A DNA stretch of 29,176 bases from a virus: IMG/VR virus record IMGVR_UViG_3300042691_013017, positions 1 through 29,176 of that record. One strand, 5' to 3'. The translations under genes and the position numbers were made by a program. Below, one piece after another: positions 2,943 through 23,199 of this stretch. The notes under the pieces were generated by a model, which worked only from the letters and a program-made list of their open reading frames with translations, searched no databases and was not told where the DNA came from. Within the stretch, counting starts at the first letter, position 1. Every line of letters begins with the position of its first letter.

Positions 2943-3800
2943 ATGTCAGCAGTCCTCGACACCACCACCAGCGCCGAGCTGGCCCCGCAAGGCAATGCAG
3001 CCGTCATGCCGAGCTTTCACAGCTCCAGCGGCTGGGAGTTGGCCCAGCGCATCGGCAAGGCGTTCGCCGCCTCCGACCTCGTGCCCCAGCAATACAAGGG
3101 CAACCTGGCGAACTGCATCGTTGCGCTCGAGATGGCGAACCGCATGGGGGCCAGCCCGCTGCAGGTGATGCAAAACCTCTACATCGTGCATGGCAACCCG
3201 GGCTGGTCTTCCAAGTTCCTGATTGCCACGTTCAACCAGTCCGGCAAGTTCTCCGCCCTGCGCTATCGCTGGAACGCCGAACACACTGCCTGCCGAGCCT
3301 GGGCGGTGGAGAAGGCCACGGGCGAGGAGCTTGTCGGGCCCGAGGTGTCCATCCAGATGGCGAAGGAAGAGGGTTGGAGTACCAAGAACGGCAGCAAGTG
3401 GAAGACGATGCCCGAGCTGATGCTGATGTACCGATCTGCCGCTTTCTTTGTGCGGACCTACGCGCCCGAGATCAGCATGGGCCTGCGTACCGACGACGAA
3501 CTGATCGACACCGTGGAGGATGTCCGCCCGGCCAGCAGCATCAATGCCGTGCGCGGCGTGCTGGGCCACGTTGACAACGCCACGGGCGAGATCCACAGCG
3601 ACAGCCCCGCCATTGGCAAGGAAACCGGGCTGGGCGGCACCGTGCAGTCCTACGCATCCGTTGCCGACAAGATCGCAAAGTCCACGACAGCCGACGCCCT
3701 GGACTACGCACGCTCCCTGATCGCCGAAGTGCCCAACGTCGAGCAGCAGGCCGAGTTGCACGCGCTGGCATCCAAGCAGTTCGCCGCCATCGGCGAGTAA
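2943..3800 (+). CDS. recT: RecT family single-strand annealing protein
   Basis: This 285-residue protein carries the RecT-family core from about residue 30 to 190. It includes NCIVALEMANRMGASPLQVM, QNLYIVHGNPGWSSKFLIAT, a KNGSKWKTMPELMLMYRSAA segment and FFVRTYAPEISMGLRTDDEL. The C-terminus (200-285) is low in conservation. RecT binds the 3' single strands made by the RecE-like nuclease encoded just upstream and anneals them to complementary DNA. The start is supported by AGGAGA nine bases before ATG 2943. Both genes are expressed early from PL, matching the exo-bet position of lambda. Confidence 0.92.
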   Translation: MSAVLDTTTSAELAPQGNAAVMPSFHSSSGWELAQRIGKAFAASDLVPQQYKGNLANCIVALEMANRMGASPLQVMQNLYIVHGNPGWSSKFLIATFNQSGKFSALRYRWNAEHTACRAWAVEKATGEELVGPEVSIQMAKEEGWSTKNGSKWKTMPELMLMYRSAAFFVRTYAPEISMGLRTDDELIDTVEDVRPASSINAVRGVLGHVDNATGEIHSDSPAIGKETGLGGTVQSYASVADKIAKSTTADALDYARSLIAEVPNVEQQAELHALASKQFAAIGE

Positions 3801-4626: not shown

Positions 4627-5189
4627 CCATGACCACCACCCTATTGCAGCAGGCGCTGGATGCGCTGGAAGAAGCCACTGCGTACACCAGCAGCCCCTCA
4701 TGGTCACCATCCATGACGGAAGAATGCACCGCTGTAGCAGCGTCTATCCGCGCACATCTGGCAGCACAGCCCACCTCCGCCACGCAGGAAGATGACCCCC
4801 TGACAAACGCTGAACTGCGTGCTGGCGTAGCCCTGCAACTGCGCGAAATCGACCGCCTGCGTGTCACCAACAAGATGCTGCAGGACGACAAGGCTGCGCT
4901 GCAAGTCGAATACGACCACGCAGTAGAGCAGGCGGCCAAGAACTGCGACGAGGTTCTGGCACTGCGGGAGCAATTGGCGCTTGCCGAGACTGTGCGGGCT
5001 GCTCAGGTGGCGGGGCTGACGGAGGGGGCGGATGCACTGCAGAGGGATGCGGCTCGATACGTCTATCTGCGCGATGTGGCGTGGCACAGCGGTTCGCTGA
5101 TCTTCTACGCCGAGCGGTACGGCCCCGAGGATTGGGACGAACAGATCGACGCCGCCCGCGCCGCACTCAAGGGGGGCGTCAATGGATAA
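4623..5189 (+). CDS. Hypothetical coiled-coil early protein
   Basis: This is a 188-residue protein starting at the ATGA overlap (4623-4626). Residues 60-140 form a long heptad-like helix (LREIDRLRVTNKMLQDDKAA and onward to LALREQLALAETVR). The C-terminus has RDAARYVYLRDVAW, then WDEQIDAARAAL, a pattern I know from many uncharacterised beta-proteobacterial phage and prophage proteins. No enzymatic motif is seen. It overlaps the following HNH-AP2 gene by eight bases. Confidence 0.65.
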   Translation: MTMTTTLLQQALDALEEATAYTSSPSWSPSMTEECTAVAASIRAHLAAQPTSATQEDDPLTNAELRAGVALQLREIDRLRVTNKMLQDDKAALQVEYDHAVEQAAKNCDEVLALREQLALAETVRAAQVAGLTEGADALQRDAARYVYLRDVAWHSGSLIFYAERYGPEDWDEQIDAARAALKGGVNG

Positions 5190-5694
5190 CGCAGGCAACG
5201 AAAAATTGACGGCTGAATTTTTGCGGAACGCCCTGTTTTACAACCCCGCCACAGGAGTTTTTTGGCATCGGTACAAAAGCAAAAGCACTATTGCGGGGCA
5301 TTTGAGGTCTGACGGTTATGTTGCGATCATGGTTCATTGGAAATGGTATGCCGCGCACCGCCTTGCATGGATGTATGTCCACGGGTCAATGCCATGCGAA
5401 TGCATTGATCATATAAATGGCATTCCATCAGACAACAGAATCGTGAATTTGCGCGAGGCAACGAACGCTCAGAATCAGCAAAACCAACGCAAAGCACAAA
5501 AGAACAACAAGTCAGGAATGCTTGGCGTAAGCCCAAGAAAAGGGCGAAAAAAGTGGGGTGCTGTCATTCGCATTAACTATAAGTCGATCTGGCTTGGGGG
5601 GTTTGATTCAAAGGAAGAAGCTGCCGCCGCTTATCTTGCGGCAAAAGCATCCATACATCCATTTGAAACCATTAGCGCGGAGTCCATGCGATGA
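5182..5694 (+). CDS. HNH-AP2 homing endonuclease
   Basis: This 170-residue protein has an HNH domain at about 55-105 (AHRLAWMYVHG, CIDHINGIPSDNRIVNLREA, with catalytic-type Asp76-His77 and Asn84/Asn89) and an AP2/ERF DNA-binding domain at about 111-155 (SGMLGVSPRK, KKWGAVIRINYKSIWLGGFD, SKEEAAAAYLAAK). This is a classic selfish phage endonuclease layout. The DNA is clearly more AT-rich and uses AAA, ATT and TTT codons more than its GC-rich neighbours, which points to recent acquisition. GGGGGG precedes the ATG at 5182. It overlaps both neighbours (8 bases upstream, ATGA downstream), so it is integrated neatly in the operon. Confidence 0.88.
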   Translation: MDNAGNEKLTAEFLRNALFYNPATGVFWHRYKSKSTIAGHLRSDGYVAIMVHWKWYAAHRLAWMYVHGSMPCECIDHINGIPSDNRIVNLREATNAQNQQNQRKAQKNNKSGMLGVSPRKGRKKWGAVIRINYKSIWLGGFDSKEEAAAAYLAAKASIHPFETISAESMR

Positions 5695-6263
5695 CCGACA
5701 TCAAACTACTGACGCCCGACGAACTGGCGGAACTCACCGGCAAAGCCTGGAGCCGCCATCAGTCAGCGTGGCTTGTGGAGCAGGGCATACCGCACCGCAC
5801 CGATGGACGGCGGGTGATCGTGAAATCCGACCATGTGCTGTCCTGGCTGGAGAGCAAAGACGTATCCAAGGAGCCGCCCTACACACCCCCGGATTGGCGC
5901 GACTACATCCTGCAGCCTGATGCGCAGCGGTATGACGCCAAGAAACACGATGGCCCGAGCGTCACCGGCATCTATGCCCTGTATGACATCTGCGGCGAAC
6001 TGCTCTACATCGGCAAGGCTTCCGACACTTACAGCCGCATAACCAATCACCTGTGGGCGATGGGGCGCGGCGATCAGGAGCGGTTTTCTGCGTACTCCTG
6101 CCTAGAGGTGCCATCCGAGATTCTGAACGGCGTGGAGGCCGCGCACATTGCCGCGCTGTACCCGCCGCGCAATTTCAAGCTCGAGACTTCGCCCTGCAAC
6201 TTCCGCGAAGCCATGACGGCAGAAATCAAGAAGATTTGGAAAGTGGTGGAGGTCGAACTATGA
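5691..6263 (+). CDS. DUF4224::GIY-YIG fusion protein
   Basis: This 190-residue protein has two parts. Residues 4-54 (LLTPDELAELTGKAWSRHQ, then WLVEQGIPHRTDGRRVIV, then HVLSWLE) resemble DUF4224, a small winged-helix-like domain normally found alone next to phage integrases. Residues 92-165 form a GIY-YIG nuclease domain with GIY (93-95), YIG (106-108), the following Arg116, Glu149 in NGVEAAHIAALY and Asn161 in PPRNF, so the known catalytic positions are present. DUF4224 may supply sequence-specific DNA binding to the nuclease. It is coupled by ATGA overlaps to the HNH-AP2 gene upstream and the excisionase-like gene downstream. Function is unproven: homing nuclease or a recombination-control factor. 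Confidence 0.8.
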   Translation: MTDIKLLTPDELAELTGKAWSRHQSAWLVEQGIPHRTDGRRVIVKSDHVLSWLESKDVSKEPPYTPPDWRDYILQPDAQRYDAKKHDGPSVTGIYALYDICGELLYIGKASDTYSRITNHLWAMGRGDQERFSAYSCLEVPSEILNGVEAAHIAALYPPRNFKLETSPCNFREAMTAEIKKIWKVVEVEL

Positions 6264-6469
6264 GCGAACTCGAGATGCTGCGCCGGGAGATTGCCCGCAT
6301 GGCCCAAGCCGTCGCGCCGTGGATCGGGCAAGAGGAAATGCAGGCCCGCTATGGCGTCACCGGGAAAACGCTGCTGGCTATGGAGCGCCGCCGCGAGATT
6401 CCGACTCGAGTAAATGGACGCTGGAGTCGTGCGGAAGTGATGGAGTGGGAAGCTCGAGTTTCTGCCTGA
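6260..6469 (+). CDS. xis: Excisionase-like helix-turn-helix protein
   Basis: From ATG 6260 (ATGA overlap with the GIY-YIG gene) this is a 69-residue basic protein. Residues 23-66 form a MerR/AlpA-like winged helix: WIGQEEMQARYGVTGKTLLA, then MERRREIPTRVNGRW, then SRAEVMEWE. Small proteins of this type directly upstream of a tyrosine integrase usually act as recombination directionality factors that bend att DNA and favour excision. The fold is clear; the excisionase role is inferred from location. Confidence 0.65.
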   Translation: MSELEMLRREIARMAQAVAPWIGQEEMQARYGVTGKTLLAMERRREIPTRVNGRWSRAEVMEWEARVSA

Positions 6470-6639
6470 TTACGCAGAAATTCCCCAAAACTGCCATGCT
6501 TCACTCTTACAGCGAGTCCCTTCCTGGGCACCATAATTGTTCTGCTTTTCTCTCGTACGCAGGGAAAACGCGGAAGGTGGATTACCCAATTTCCCCCACA
6601 ATGGGGAAGTTCGGCACCCAAATCCCCCAAATTTTCCCC
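6470..6639 (+). promoter_or_regulatory. Integrase leader with TTCCCC repeats and an inverted repeat over the start codon
   Basis: This 170-base AT-richer gap contains TTCCCC at 6481-6486, 6591-6596 and 6634-6639, and its reverse GGGGAA at 6603-6608. ATGGGGAA (6601-6608) is a perfect inverted partner of TTCCCCAT (6634-6641), whose end includes the first two bases of the integrase ATG. A hairpin could hide that start, and no Shine-Dalgarno site precedes it. The repeats could also be protein-binding sites. I see no convincing promoter. Confidence 0.45.
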
Positions 6640-7605
6640 ATGTCATCGATCAAGCCCTATGGCACCGGGTATCGCGTACAGCTATACGTCCGGGGCCAGC
6701 GTGATTCTCGCACGTTCGACACGAAGAAAGCCGCGCAACTGTGGGCAGCGCAACGCACCATCGACCTGCAGACCATCTCGAGCGGGCAGGAGGGAACGCT
6801 ACGCACCATCCAAGATGCGTTCGACAAATACGCTGGGGAGGTTGCGCCTACGCACAAAGGCGAACGGTGGGAGGTTGTCAGGCTTGCCAAACTTGCTCGA
6901 GATTTTCCGCGCATCACTTTGGACAAGTTGACGGCCACCCACATCCAGCAATGGCGGGACTCGAGACTTAAGCAGGTTGGCCCCGCGTCTGTGCTGCGTG
7001 AGATGAAGCTGATCCACAGCGTACTCGAGCAGGCCCGCAGGGAGTGGCGCTGGCTGACAGTCAACCCTTGCGCGGAAGTCCGCAAGCCTACCGCACCCGG
7101 CCATAGGAGCCGCGTAATCAGCCGCCAGGAAGCTCGAGCGCTGTTGCGGGCACTCGGATACCCAAAACTCGAGACAGCCCGCCACAGCGTTGCCCATGCG
7201 TTCCTGTTGGCATTGCGTACAGGCATGCGGGCGGGCGAACTGGCCGGGTTGACCTGGGCGGATGTGTTTGCCGGGTTTGTGCGCCTGCCAAAGACCAAGA
7301 ACGGCACCGCTCGAGATGTTCCACTGTCTGCCAAGGCTAGGCGCGTTCTCGAGAAGATGCGCGGGTATCACGCTGAATCGGTGTTCGGGGTGACGGCTGG
7401 CAGCATTGATGTTCACTTTCGCGCTGCTCGAGCGCGGGCGGGCTTGTCTGGCATGAATTGGCACGACACCCGGCACACTGCCGCCACATGGATTGCGCCC
7501 AAGCTGCAACTGCTCGAGCTATGCAAGATGTTCGGATGGCGAGACCCCAAGCAAGCCATGATCTATTTCAACCCGAGCGCGTCAGACATCGCGGGCAAGC
7601 TGTGA
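6640..7605 (+). CDS. int: Tyrosine-family phage integrase
   Basis: This 321-residue site-specific recombinase starts with an arm-binding-type region (SSIKPYGTGYRVQLYVRG, residues 2-19), followed by a core-binding domain at about 55-145 and a catalytic domain at about 160-321. The catalytic set is visible: Arg197 in RTGMRAGELAGLTW, Lys218/220 in LPKTKNG, His275 and Arg278 in HDTRHTAATW, Trp300 in place of the usual second His (FGWRDPKQ; Cre also has Trp), and nucleophile Tyr309 in MIYFNPS. The frame is open upstream to 6319 and overlaps xis, but homology begins at ATG 6640. It is the last gene of the rightward operon, facing the leftward holin gene. Confidence 0.92.
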   Translation: MSSIKPYGTGYRVQLYVRGQRDSRTFDTKKAAQLWAAQRTIDLQTISSGQEGTLRTIQDAFDKYAGEVAPTHKGERWEVVRLAKLARDFPRITLDKLTATHIQQWRDSRLKQVGPASVLREMKLIHSVLEQARREWRWLTVNPCAEVRKPTAPGHRSRVISRQEARALLRALGYPKLETARHSVAHAFLLALRTGMRAGELAGLTWADVFAGFVRLPKTKNGTARDVPLSAKARRVLEKMRGYHAESVFGVTAGSIDVHFRAARARAGLSGMNWHDTRHTAATWIAPKLQLLELCKMFGWRDPKQAMIYFNPSASDIAGKL

Positions 7606-7762
7606 ATCGACAGCCCCAACATGCCCAACATAATCAACCACTTAGCCGCAGAGTTTCTGCATCGCGTCTGCGGCGTTTCTGCAAAGGCTAGGGCTTGATG
7701 GCCTTTAGATCCATTATCTGCGCGGGGATAATCCGTGATAATTGGCTAGGGCTTGATGGCTT
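7606..7762. other. Convergent int-holin gap rich in repeats; candidate attP/terminator region
   Basis: Visible elements: a perfect inverted repeat GCCGCAGA/TCTGCGGC (7645-7652 and 7667-7674, 14-base loop); GTTTCTGC twice (7653-7660 and 7675-7682); a perfect 17-base direct repeat GGCTAGGGCTTGATGGC (7686-7702 and 7744-7760); and ATTATC-N8-GATAAT (7713-7732) with a further GATAAT at 7737-7742. The segment between the 17-base repeats holds the GATAAT elements. Repeats beside an integrase gene are typical of attP arms and core. No gene is seen. The hairpin lacks a good T-run, so a terminator role is weak. Confidence 0.5.
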
Positions 7763-8161
7763 TCACGCCACGCCTTTTACTTTTTCCACCGACCGCAGAC
7801 CAGCAATCCCAAGCAAGCCGCCGAGCGTGTAGATCAGCACATCCGAGTCCACCGCAGGCGGTGCAGGCCAGCCCTTCGCCGCTGCAAGCCATGCAAGCAT
7901 GTTGTGCCCGATGGTGGCGTATGCCAAGCCCGTACCGCAGCACCAGCCCACGAAGGGCCTCCATCCGGCCACGAAGATGGACGGATGCTGCGCTTCCTTG
8001 GCGTTGATTTCCAGTTGCGCCAGGACGGTCTGCAGGTCGCCTGCCTGGGCGATCTTGAGCAGCTCCAATTCCGCCGCAGCCTTTGCTGCAGGGTCTGGAA
8101 ACATGCGCTCGATGATCTTGCCGCCGAGGTCGAATAGGGGGCCGAGCAGCAAGGGGTTCAT
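7763..8161 (-). CDS. Holin of the 3TM (GTA-holin, DUF3154) type
   Basis: This 132-residue protein has an amphipathic N-terminus (residues 1-55), the family signature FVAGWRPFVGWCCGTGLAYA (63-82) that opens the first membrane helix, and a second membrane helix at about 108-123 (LIYTLGGLLGIAGLRS). The family oligomerises in the inner membrane to release or activate the endolysin. The start at ATG 8161 is preferred over one four codons upstream because that one would overlap the endolysin gene. It is the last gene of the leftward late operon, directly after the endolysin. Confidence 0.85.
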   Translation of the reverse strand: MNPLLLGPLFDLGGKIIERMFPDPAAKAAAELELLKIAQAGDLQTVLAQLEINAKEAQHPSIFVAGWRPFVGWCCGTGLAYATIGHNMLAWLAAAKGWPAPPAVDSDVLIYTLGGLLGIAGLRSVEKVKGVA

Positions 8162-21106: not shown

Positions 21107-23199
21107 TACCGCACCTCGATCAGGATCGGACGGCCAGCACCATCCACCACCGGACGGCCACCCACCAGCGGCGTGAACTGGCCGGCGCGGTACGGCATCA
21201 GCGGCAGACCGGGCAGGGTTTTCAGAAACTCGGTAGCGGGCATCGGCACGCCGCCCGCGCGCACGGTGTCGGTCTTGATGTCGGCAGGGGTCACGGTGCG
21301 CAGGCGCTTGGCCAGGCCGTCCTCGTCCACGCCGGCAGGAAGGGGAATCTTGCGCCCGTTGTGTTCGACCACCTCGCCGCCGACCGCCAAACGCAAAGCC
21401 CGCTGCCGATCCTTGGTGGACAGTTCGCCGCCCTGCTCTGCCGCGATCCCGTGGCTGATGAGCATCGCCGCCTCTCGCACCTGGTCGGCGGTCTGCTGGT
21501 TGGGGTACACATCGGCCAGGCTGTCGGCGAACTCGGCAGACCACTGGCCCACCGCTGCGTCGGGCTGCTTCAGTCCTTTGGTGCTGGTCTTGTCCAGCCG
21601 CGCCTGCTGCCCGCGCAGGATCAATTCCGAGGTGTACCGGCCCGATGTCGTCTGCCGGTCGGTGTAGGCCAAGGCCAGGGCAAGCGCCTGATCCTTTGGC
21701 TCGATCTGCTTGGCAAAGGCTGCGCGCTGGCCCACGGTCATGACCTTGGACAGCCCGACCAGTGCGCCGGCCCGGTCTTTGGGTGGCATGGCAAGCAGAA
21801 CCCCGCCGATCTTCTCGGCTTCCTCGGGACGGAATAGCGACACCTCCCGGCCAGCCGCCACGCTGACCTTGCGCGCGTCCTCGGCCCGGGCCGCAAGCTG
21901 AGCCGGCAGGGCTTGGATGTCCAGCGATAGCGGGGAAACGCCGACGATTACCCCGCGCTCTGCCGCTGCCTGATAGGGGTCTTTCGCGTAGTCGGCCACC
22001 GCCGCTTTGTAGACCGTCTCGCGCTTCTTGTACTCGGCGATCATCTCGGGCGTCGCGCCCTTGGTGTTCATGGTGGCCTGAAACGCCATCAGGGATTGCG
22101 ACTGTGCGGCCAGCGGCTGCGATGCGAATGCCGACGTGGCAGGGGCTTGCGTCATCATGGCGTCGAGTGCCGCAGCGTAGGGCGTGCCCCGGAACTGCCG
22201 GCGCGCAGCCTCTGCCGCTGCCGGGTCGAGCATCTTGCCGGCGTCGAACACGGTGGACAGGGCATTCCACTGGGTTTCCAGCCTGCGCGCTGCCGCCGCG
22301 CTGGCGACCTCGGCCCGGTTTACGGCCTGCGTCACCCGCACGTCGGCGGTCTGGATCAGGTTCGTGCGTGCGCCCGGGTCCAGTTCGGGCAGGTACTTGG
22401 GGTCTTTCAGGGCCTTGAGTGCCGCGCCCGGGTCGGCGTTCACCAGTGCTGTGGCCTGGGTGAACCGCACGCGCTCGGCGAACTGCTGCACCCGGGCCTG
22501 CGCATCCTTGTCGCCCGCCATCGGGCCGGTGGCCGCCCAGAATGCACGCACGTTGGCGATGGCCTGGTCGGCCTCCTTCGGGCCGCGCACCGCGAACCGC
22601 TGCATCTCCTCGAAGTAGGCCATGCCGCCCGACATGATGTCGGCTTTCTCGCGTGCTGCCACCAGACCGGCGACCGACCGGCGCGTGCGGCCCACGTTGT
22701 CCAGAAGGCTCGCCTCCACCAGCGGGCGATTCTCCGGGTCCACGCCCTCGATGCCTGCGGCCTGCAGCTTCTGCGCCCGGGTCTGGAAAATCTCCAGCGC
22801 CTTGCCCTTGTCCACCGTGCCGTCGGCCAGCCCGTTCTGGATCTCGTCGTGCAGGTCGTTCAGGCCGTTGGTGATCGTGGCCGATGCCGTCAGGGCCTTG
22901 ACCCGTGCGGCTTCACGCGCCGCTGCTTTGGCCTCTGCCTCGGCCTGGCGCTGCGCTGCCTTAATCTCTGCGGCCACCTCTCGCGCCGCTTGCTTGGCGT
23001 CTGCCTCGTCCTGGCGCTTGGCGCGGTCAGCCTCTGCTGCCGCCTGATCCATCTCCTGGCCAGCAGCGCGCATGCCGATGGAGCCTGCATTCTGTAGGGC
23101 TTGTCCTACACCCGCGCCATAGGCATCCGGACCGCCTGACGGCCGCTCGACCGGGCGAGCCACCACACCACCGAAGTCGCCCAGGGGGATGCGCGCCAT
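21106..23199 (-). CDS. Internal virion protein, T7 gp15-like position (697 aa)
   Basis: This is a 697-residue, Ala-rich, mostly helical protein. The N-terminus has IPLGDFGGVVARPVERPSGG. Residues 45-105 are an Ala/Lys/Glu/Arg-rich continuous helix (AAAEADRAKRQDEADAKQAA and further). A repeated-helix body runs to about 600. The C-terminus is PLMPYRAGQFTPLVGGRPVV. Size and place between the gp14-like and 655-residue proteins correspond to the inner core proteins of T7-type podoviruses, which form a trans-envelope channel for DNA. The ATG overlaps the upstream TAA (TAATG). The assignment rests on order, size and composition. Confidence 0.75.
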   Translation of the reverse strand: MARIPLGDFGGVVARPVERPSGGPDAYGAGVGQALQNAGSIGMRAAGQEMDQAAAEADRAKRQDEADAKQAAREVAAEIKAAQRQAEAEAKAAAREAARVKALTASATITNGLNDLHDEIQNGLADGTVDKGKALEIFQTRAQKLQAAGIEGVDPENRPLVEASLLDNVGRTRRSVAGLVAAREKADIMSGGMAYFEEMQRFAVRGPKEADQAIANVRAFWAATGPMAGDKDAQARVQQFAERVRFTQATALVNADPGAALKALKDPKYLPELDPGARTNLIQTADVRVTQAVNRAEVASAAAARRLETQWNALSTVFDAGKMLDPAAAEAARRQFRGTPYAAALDAMMTQAPATSAFASQPLAAQSQSLMAFQATMNTKGATPEMIAEYKKRETVYKAAVADYAKDPYQAAAERGVIVGVSPLSLDIQALPAQLAARAEDARKVSVAAGREVSLFRPEEAEKIGGVLLAMPPKDRAGALVGLSKVMTVGQRAAFAKQIEPKDQALALALAYTDRQTTSGRYTSELILRGQQARLDKTSTKGLKQPDAAVGQWSAEFADSLADVYPNQQTADQVREAAMLISHGIAAEQGGELSTKDRQRALRLAVGGEVVEHNGRKIPLPAGVDEDGLAKRLRTVTPADIKTDTVRAGGVPMPATEFLKTLPGLPLMPYRAGQFTPLVGGRPVVDGAGRPILIEVR

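Follow-up and report, generated by a model that had tools for sequence, protein, structure and literature searches.

The locus considered here raises the question of how a single six-base palindrome, CTCGAG, came to fill the integration module of a temperate phage and hardly any other part of it. The window, by which we mean the entire stretch analysed and at the same time the whole viral record (29,176 bases), holds 16 copies, of which 14 lie within one short segment (Table 1) and the remainder at 3126 and 14094. These counts agree with the original prediction, which had put 14 copies in ~1.34 kb, a length for which base composition led it to expect under one, and two elsewhere; whole-window dinucleotide shuffles gave 8.4 copies per 29 kb, or ~0.4 in 1.34 kb. 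Iterated palindromes have hitherto been treated as a property of whole genomes, and a repair ratchet, methylation and selection compete as accounts of their origin.

The window is a temperate podovirus. Protein profile scans identified T7-like late genes (terminase, tail, head) on the minus strand, the terminase showing 61-63% identity to that of Yersinia phages YeP4-6. The plus strand carries an early operon whose last genes are, in order, DUF3799 nuclease, RecT-like annealing protein, HNH-AP2, DUF4224/GIY-YIG, xis and int. Several features of this layout deserve mention in their own right: the HNH-AP2 homing-endonuclease-like gene (5182-5694) has ~47% GC against 63% for the phage and is probably a recent insertion; the DUF4224/GIY-YIG gene fuses an excisionase-like N-terminus to a weak GIY-YIG nuclease match directly upstream of a separate xis; a 20-base direct repeat (95%), GGCTAGGGCTTGATGGC, occupies 7686-7705 and 7744-7763 in the convergent int/holin gap; and a 96-base tRNA-Trp reported by ARAGORN at 22344-22439, within a long structural ORF of the opposite strand, is probably a false positive. 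The cluster of CTCGAG had been assigned to the xis-int segment, and it does cover both genes; its first copy, though, falls within the final 85 bases of the preceding DUF4224/GIY-YIG gene, and the spacer between xis and int, which holds attP, contains none. Since the two earlier Leu-Glu pairs of that preceding gene are written CTGGAG (5847) and CTAGAG (6102), the left edge of the CTCGAG segment lies between 6102 and 6180.

Table 1. Features of the CTCGAG-saturated segment and its surroundings (window coordinates).
Feature	Position	Strand	Residues, codon phase	Remarks
DUF4224/GIY-YIG gene	5691..6263	+		N-terminus excisionase-like DUF4224, GIY-YIG match weak; CTCGAG only at last Leu-Glu pair
CTCGAG-saturated segment	6180..7518			14 copies in 1,339 bases, 10.5 per kb
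CTCGAG	6180..6185		LE, phase 0	upstream gene, 3' end
xis-like excisionase	6263..6469	+		phrog_66; CTCGAG at 3/3 reachable placements
CTCGAG	6269..6274		LE, phase 0	xis
CTCGAG	6405..6410		TRV, phase 1	xis
CTCGAG	6453..6458		ARV, phase 1	xis
attP core CGAGTCCCTTCCTGGGCACCA	6516..6536	+		21 bp, 3' end of tRNA-Leu(CAG) in G001
int, tyrosine recombinase	6640..7605	+		PF00589, phrog_1; CTCGAG at 10/12 reachable placements
CTCGAG	6777..6782		ISS, phase 2	int
CTCGAG	6896..6901		ARD, phase 1	int
CTCGAG	6960..6965		DSR, phase 2	int; CTCGAG in L153 too
CTCGAG	7024..7029		LE, phase 0	int; CTCGAG in L153 too
CTCGAG	7133..7138		ARA, phase 1	int
CTCGAG	7168..7173		LE, phase 0	int
CTCGAG	7310..7315		ARD, phase 1	int; CTCGAG in L153 too
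CTCGAG	7348..7353		LE, phase 0	int; CTCGAG in L153 too
CTCGAG	7427..7432		ARA, phase 1	int; CTCGAG in L153 too (ARE)
CTCGAG	7513..7518		LE, phase 0	int

To express how far the palindrome has spread, we define filling as the number of CTCGAG present over the number of placements at which CTCGAG is reachable by single synonymous base changes, the protein being left unchanged. By this measure xis and int are nearly full (Table 1), as against 2 of 72 placements elsewhere in the phage (p 1e-11 by Fisher's test within the window). When synonymous codons of int were shuffled 20,000 times, the mean was 0.77 copies and the maximum 6, compared with 10 observed; for xis the mean was 0.31, and the observed 3 were reached in 26 of 20,000 shuffles. 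When 3,733 ORFs, drawn from all the loci collected, were surveyed for 64 palindromic hexamers, the window int took rank 1. Going by the proteins listed and the counts per contig, just one further high-ranking ORF was free of repeats and lay in a contig without CTCGAG enrichment elsewhere, namely the int of a second virus, L153. Words one mismatch away from CTCGAG are scarce in the window int (1, where codon shuffles give 7.3) and less so in that of L153 (4 against 8.0 expected, 4.4% of shuffles being as low), and the near-misses left in the segment, at 6392, 6421 and 7572, could be converted to CTCGAG only with an amino acid change. An origin in codon usage, base composition or chance can draw on the facts that CTC, GAG, GCT and CGA are each permissible codons and that the region has ~60% GC; the codon-preserving shuffles, the rank in the ORF survey and the binomial probabilities calculated at the rate of the 151 int homologues (window int 2e-13, L153 int 2e-11) refute it, and we give it practically no credence.

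The 14 copies occur in all three codon phases, as had been predicted: six as CTC GAG, six as xCT CGA Gxx and two as xxC TCG AGx. Together with the near-total filling of synonymous placements and the existence of close homologues without sites, this bears out the earlier view that the force concerned acts on DNA and not on protein. That CTCGAG is a frequent cloning site might also bring to mind an assembly or laboratory artefact, such as XhoI linkers or a synthetic construct, yet the reading frames run uninterrupted, the residues encoded by each copy are normal ones for the family, and saturation recurs, at partly different positions, in a contig from another metagenome, so that this explanation is highly improbable. 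The pattern itself is real, since a second, separate virus shows it likewise.

That second virus was recognised among the relatives of int, of which alignment-based scans and searches of 401 genomes of the family yielded 153 distinct genes (an initial scan with the single sequence gave distant relatives only). The closest, L152, has 68-69% identity in int and 61% in xis and the same order xis-attP-int as the window, and its module contains zero CTCGAG. The int of L153 (contig IMGVR_UViG_3300033076_000893) has 53% identity to that of the window and 8 of its 9 reachable placements filled, and its xis, which lies convergent and downstream of int, has its one placement filled, at the gene end; the complete L153 record of 37,451 bases holds 10 CTCGAG and 3 GAGCTC. 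In both phages the sites are restricted to the xis-int module, and five of them stand at homologous codons of the two int genes, the remaining ones at non-homologous codons. L172, a sister of L153 at 81% identity, has 0 of 9 placements filled. The relatives of xis designated L521-L524 likewise have no CTCGAG in the module, and no relative of int or xis above 69-71% identity was found.

These comparisons decide two points of ancestry. The expectation that homologous int genes would have the sites in common did not hold, for L152, L172 and 149 others at similar or higher identity lack the pattern (35 of 975 reachable placements filled) and only the window and L153 are saturated among the 153; the integrase family as a whole is thus not characterised by saturation. 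In the int tree the two saturated genes occupy separate, well-supported places, each with a clean sister beside it, and two changes are required. A single old event still visible today is ruled out as well, because synonymous positions would have been randomised at 53% identity.

The attP core offers a further constraint. The 21 bp equal the 3' end of a tRNA-Leu(CAG) gene in the Rhodoferax MAG G001, and the last 18 bases are also matched in G104 and L152; this tRNA match suggests a Burkholderiales host. A role of CTCGAG as a homing or recombination signal, raised originally, receives no support, since CTCGAG is absent from the attP core and the spacing of copies follows codon permissiveness. 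Additionally, since attP lies between xis and int, the two genes would come to stand at opposite ends of the prophage, which makes it unlikely that the process works on a single end; the unit concerned is the module in its circular or virion form.

Among the explanations that remain to be weighed, we favour, at a probability of about 0.5, a recent import of the integration module from a replicon in which CTCGAG is iterated in the manner of the highly iterated palindromes (HIP). Temperate phages are well known to exchange integration modules. On this account, the stretch from ~6102-6180 to the end of int, comprising xis, attP and int, would have entered the podovirus recently by recombination, from a donor whose whole DNA was saturated with CTCGAG acting as a highly iterated palindrome. 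The donor sequence would have drifted to CTCGAG wherever a synonymous path allowed, its copies probably being methylated and preserved either by methylation-linked repair, working as a ratchet, or by selection for methylated sites, and in the new phage the sites would not yet have decayed. The int and xis of L153 would reflect an independent event of like kind. The near-total filling irrespective of codon phase, spacing and gene argues for such an import, as do the depletion of near-misses in int, those left being beyond synonymous conversion, and the sharp left edge between CTAGAG and CTCGAG. Import would also account for the clean sisters and for the repeated origin, two separate saturated int lineages with a clean sister each being what repeated imports should produce.

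Import is also supported by the existence of replicons of the needed type. Three phage records are enriched in CTCGAG throughout, at 2.6-2.9 per kb: G1165 (L306; 84 CTCGAG and 1 GAGCTC in 29.5 kb, 51% GC over 10.7 kb), G1166 (L379; 118 and 1 in 45.3 kb) and G1167 (L373; 85 and 0 in 32.0 kb). These contigs were picked up through their CTCGAG patterns and so do not measure how frequent such phages are. Where G1165 and G1166 were read, ~45-50% of reachable placements are filled, and the int genes of G1166 and G1167 have 7 sites each, 7 of 12 placements being filled. L379 and L373 have their genes in common. The three records represent a HIP-like state in phages. An int taken from a phage of the G1165 type would much resemble the one found here, somewhat less saturated.

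A source of the density required was not met with among cellular genomes. Across ~590 Pseudomonadota genomes (201 of the Burkholderiales family and 398 of the phylum) CTCGAG reaches at most ~1.3 per kb, compared with ~10 per kb in the module; the collections sampled were centred on Pseudomonadota, other phyla being represented by one Actinomycetes genome. A host-wide signature was not found in the Burkholderiales family or the Pseudomonadota, and the foreign, CTCGAG-rich source proposed at the outset stands as a live explanation with no such cellular genome among those sampled. Pairs of int sites were found in 0 of 399 genomes of the order and, within an int, only in L153 in IMG/VR; the sole other contig to match them, L518, does not encode an integrase there. 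Tight triple clusters of CTCGAG were few in 401 family genomes (20 or fewer per genome), and those read mostly resemble in-frame Leu-Glu pairs. CTCGAG-dense loci from an open pattern scan were mostly of low complexity, very GC-rich or enriched genome-wide, and none was a confined int module. Four observations count against import: no donor appeared in any of these genome sets or in IMG/VR, where L153 was the only such int; the CTCGAG-iterated phages are ~45-58% filled compared with ~87-90% in the two modules; two imports are needed, both stopping at the xis-int module; and no relative is close enough in identity to date or trace a transfer.

The main rival places the process in the module itself: a protein that binds CTCGAG, or a methyltransferase acting on it, would subject the copies in int and xis to selection or drive. 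Silencing of int transcription in lysogens would be one example of such a role, a coupling of integration to hosts with CTCGAG methylation another. The sites coincide with xis-int in both phages despite their different gene orders, and the five at homologous codons are hard to reconcile with 53% identity unless they are maintained or regenerated; moreover, viruses are known to encode solitary CTCGAG methyltransferases (PMC7253447). However, the copies occur wherever the codons leave room for them, without a preserved spacing or array, the attP/regulatory spacer has none, the 151 int homologues manage without saturation, and neither a methyltransferase (Pfam, PHROGs) nor another obvious candidate was recognised among the window proteins scanned. 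We regard this rival as a serious but doubtful one. Its most far-reaching form would be a palindrome drive on the scale of genes, by which the xis-int of some temperate phages alone is pushed continuously to CTCGAG at every synonymous opportunity, the bound or methylated marks controlling integration and excision; this we consider rather unlikely. A process at the RNA level, with CUCGAG in the int/xis transcript serving as an endoribonuclease or small RNA site or shaping secondary structure, would fit the location of most sites on the coding strand of one operon and the somewhat greater folding stability of the window int mRNA relative to codon shuffles (z -2.6). The folding effect is absent from L153 int (z 0.1), one L153 site lies within the oppositely transcribed xis, and a palindrome gives no distinction between strands, all of which leave the RNA-level explanation with little probability.

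Whichever of these explanations applies, the module can be compared with clean sister genes, and a second case arose independently. If it was imported, CTCGAG provides a readable fingerprint for tracing the origins of phage integration modules and points to uncharacterised replicons saturated with it. If the sites are maintained locally, they represent a new mode of lysogeny control; under a drive, that control would be epigenetic or set by site density, and written into coding sequence.

Comparison with known systems places the module beside, and not within, the highly iterated palindromes. HIP1 and alternate palindromes of cyanobacteria occur genome-wide at ~0.5-2.5 per kb, and models linked to methyltransferases, including methylation-linked repair, have been proposed for them (Elhai 2015, PMC4390886). 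The resemblance to HIP confined to one module, suggested at the outset, is borne out: in both cases a short GC-rich palindrome is far over-represented in coding sequence in any codon phase, and the biased near-misses of HIP (PMC4390886) may have a parallel in the shortage of near-misses in the window int, which is less marked in that of L153. Unlike HIP, the palindrome is limited to one 1.4 kb module, at ~4 times the upper end of the densities usual in HIP genomes, and is nearly missing from the other 28 kb of the phage; lacking genome-wide over-representation, the module is not classed as HIP. We found no report of module-confined CTCGAG in the literature. G1165-G1167 share with the module the same hexamer and, in two of the three, an int with 7 copies, GAGCTC being nearly absent from all three, but their enrichment extends over the whole record at about half saturation. 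Giant viruses encode solitary CTCGAG methyltransferases, which makes CTCGAG a known viral methylation site, and mollivirus has 850 copies (PMC7253447); those viruses are eukaryotic and their sites are genome-wide, not confined to a module, whereas no such enzyme was recognised in the window. Finally, the avoidance of Type II restriction-modification sites concerns the same class of palindrome. Rhodoferax MAG G001 (L089) strongly avoids CTCGAG, with 64 copies in 5.8 Mb against 547 of GAGCTC, and other genomes of the family are similar (e.g. G003, 33 against 363). The window module shows the opposite sign, for there CTCGAG accumulates.
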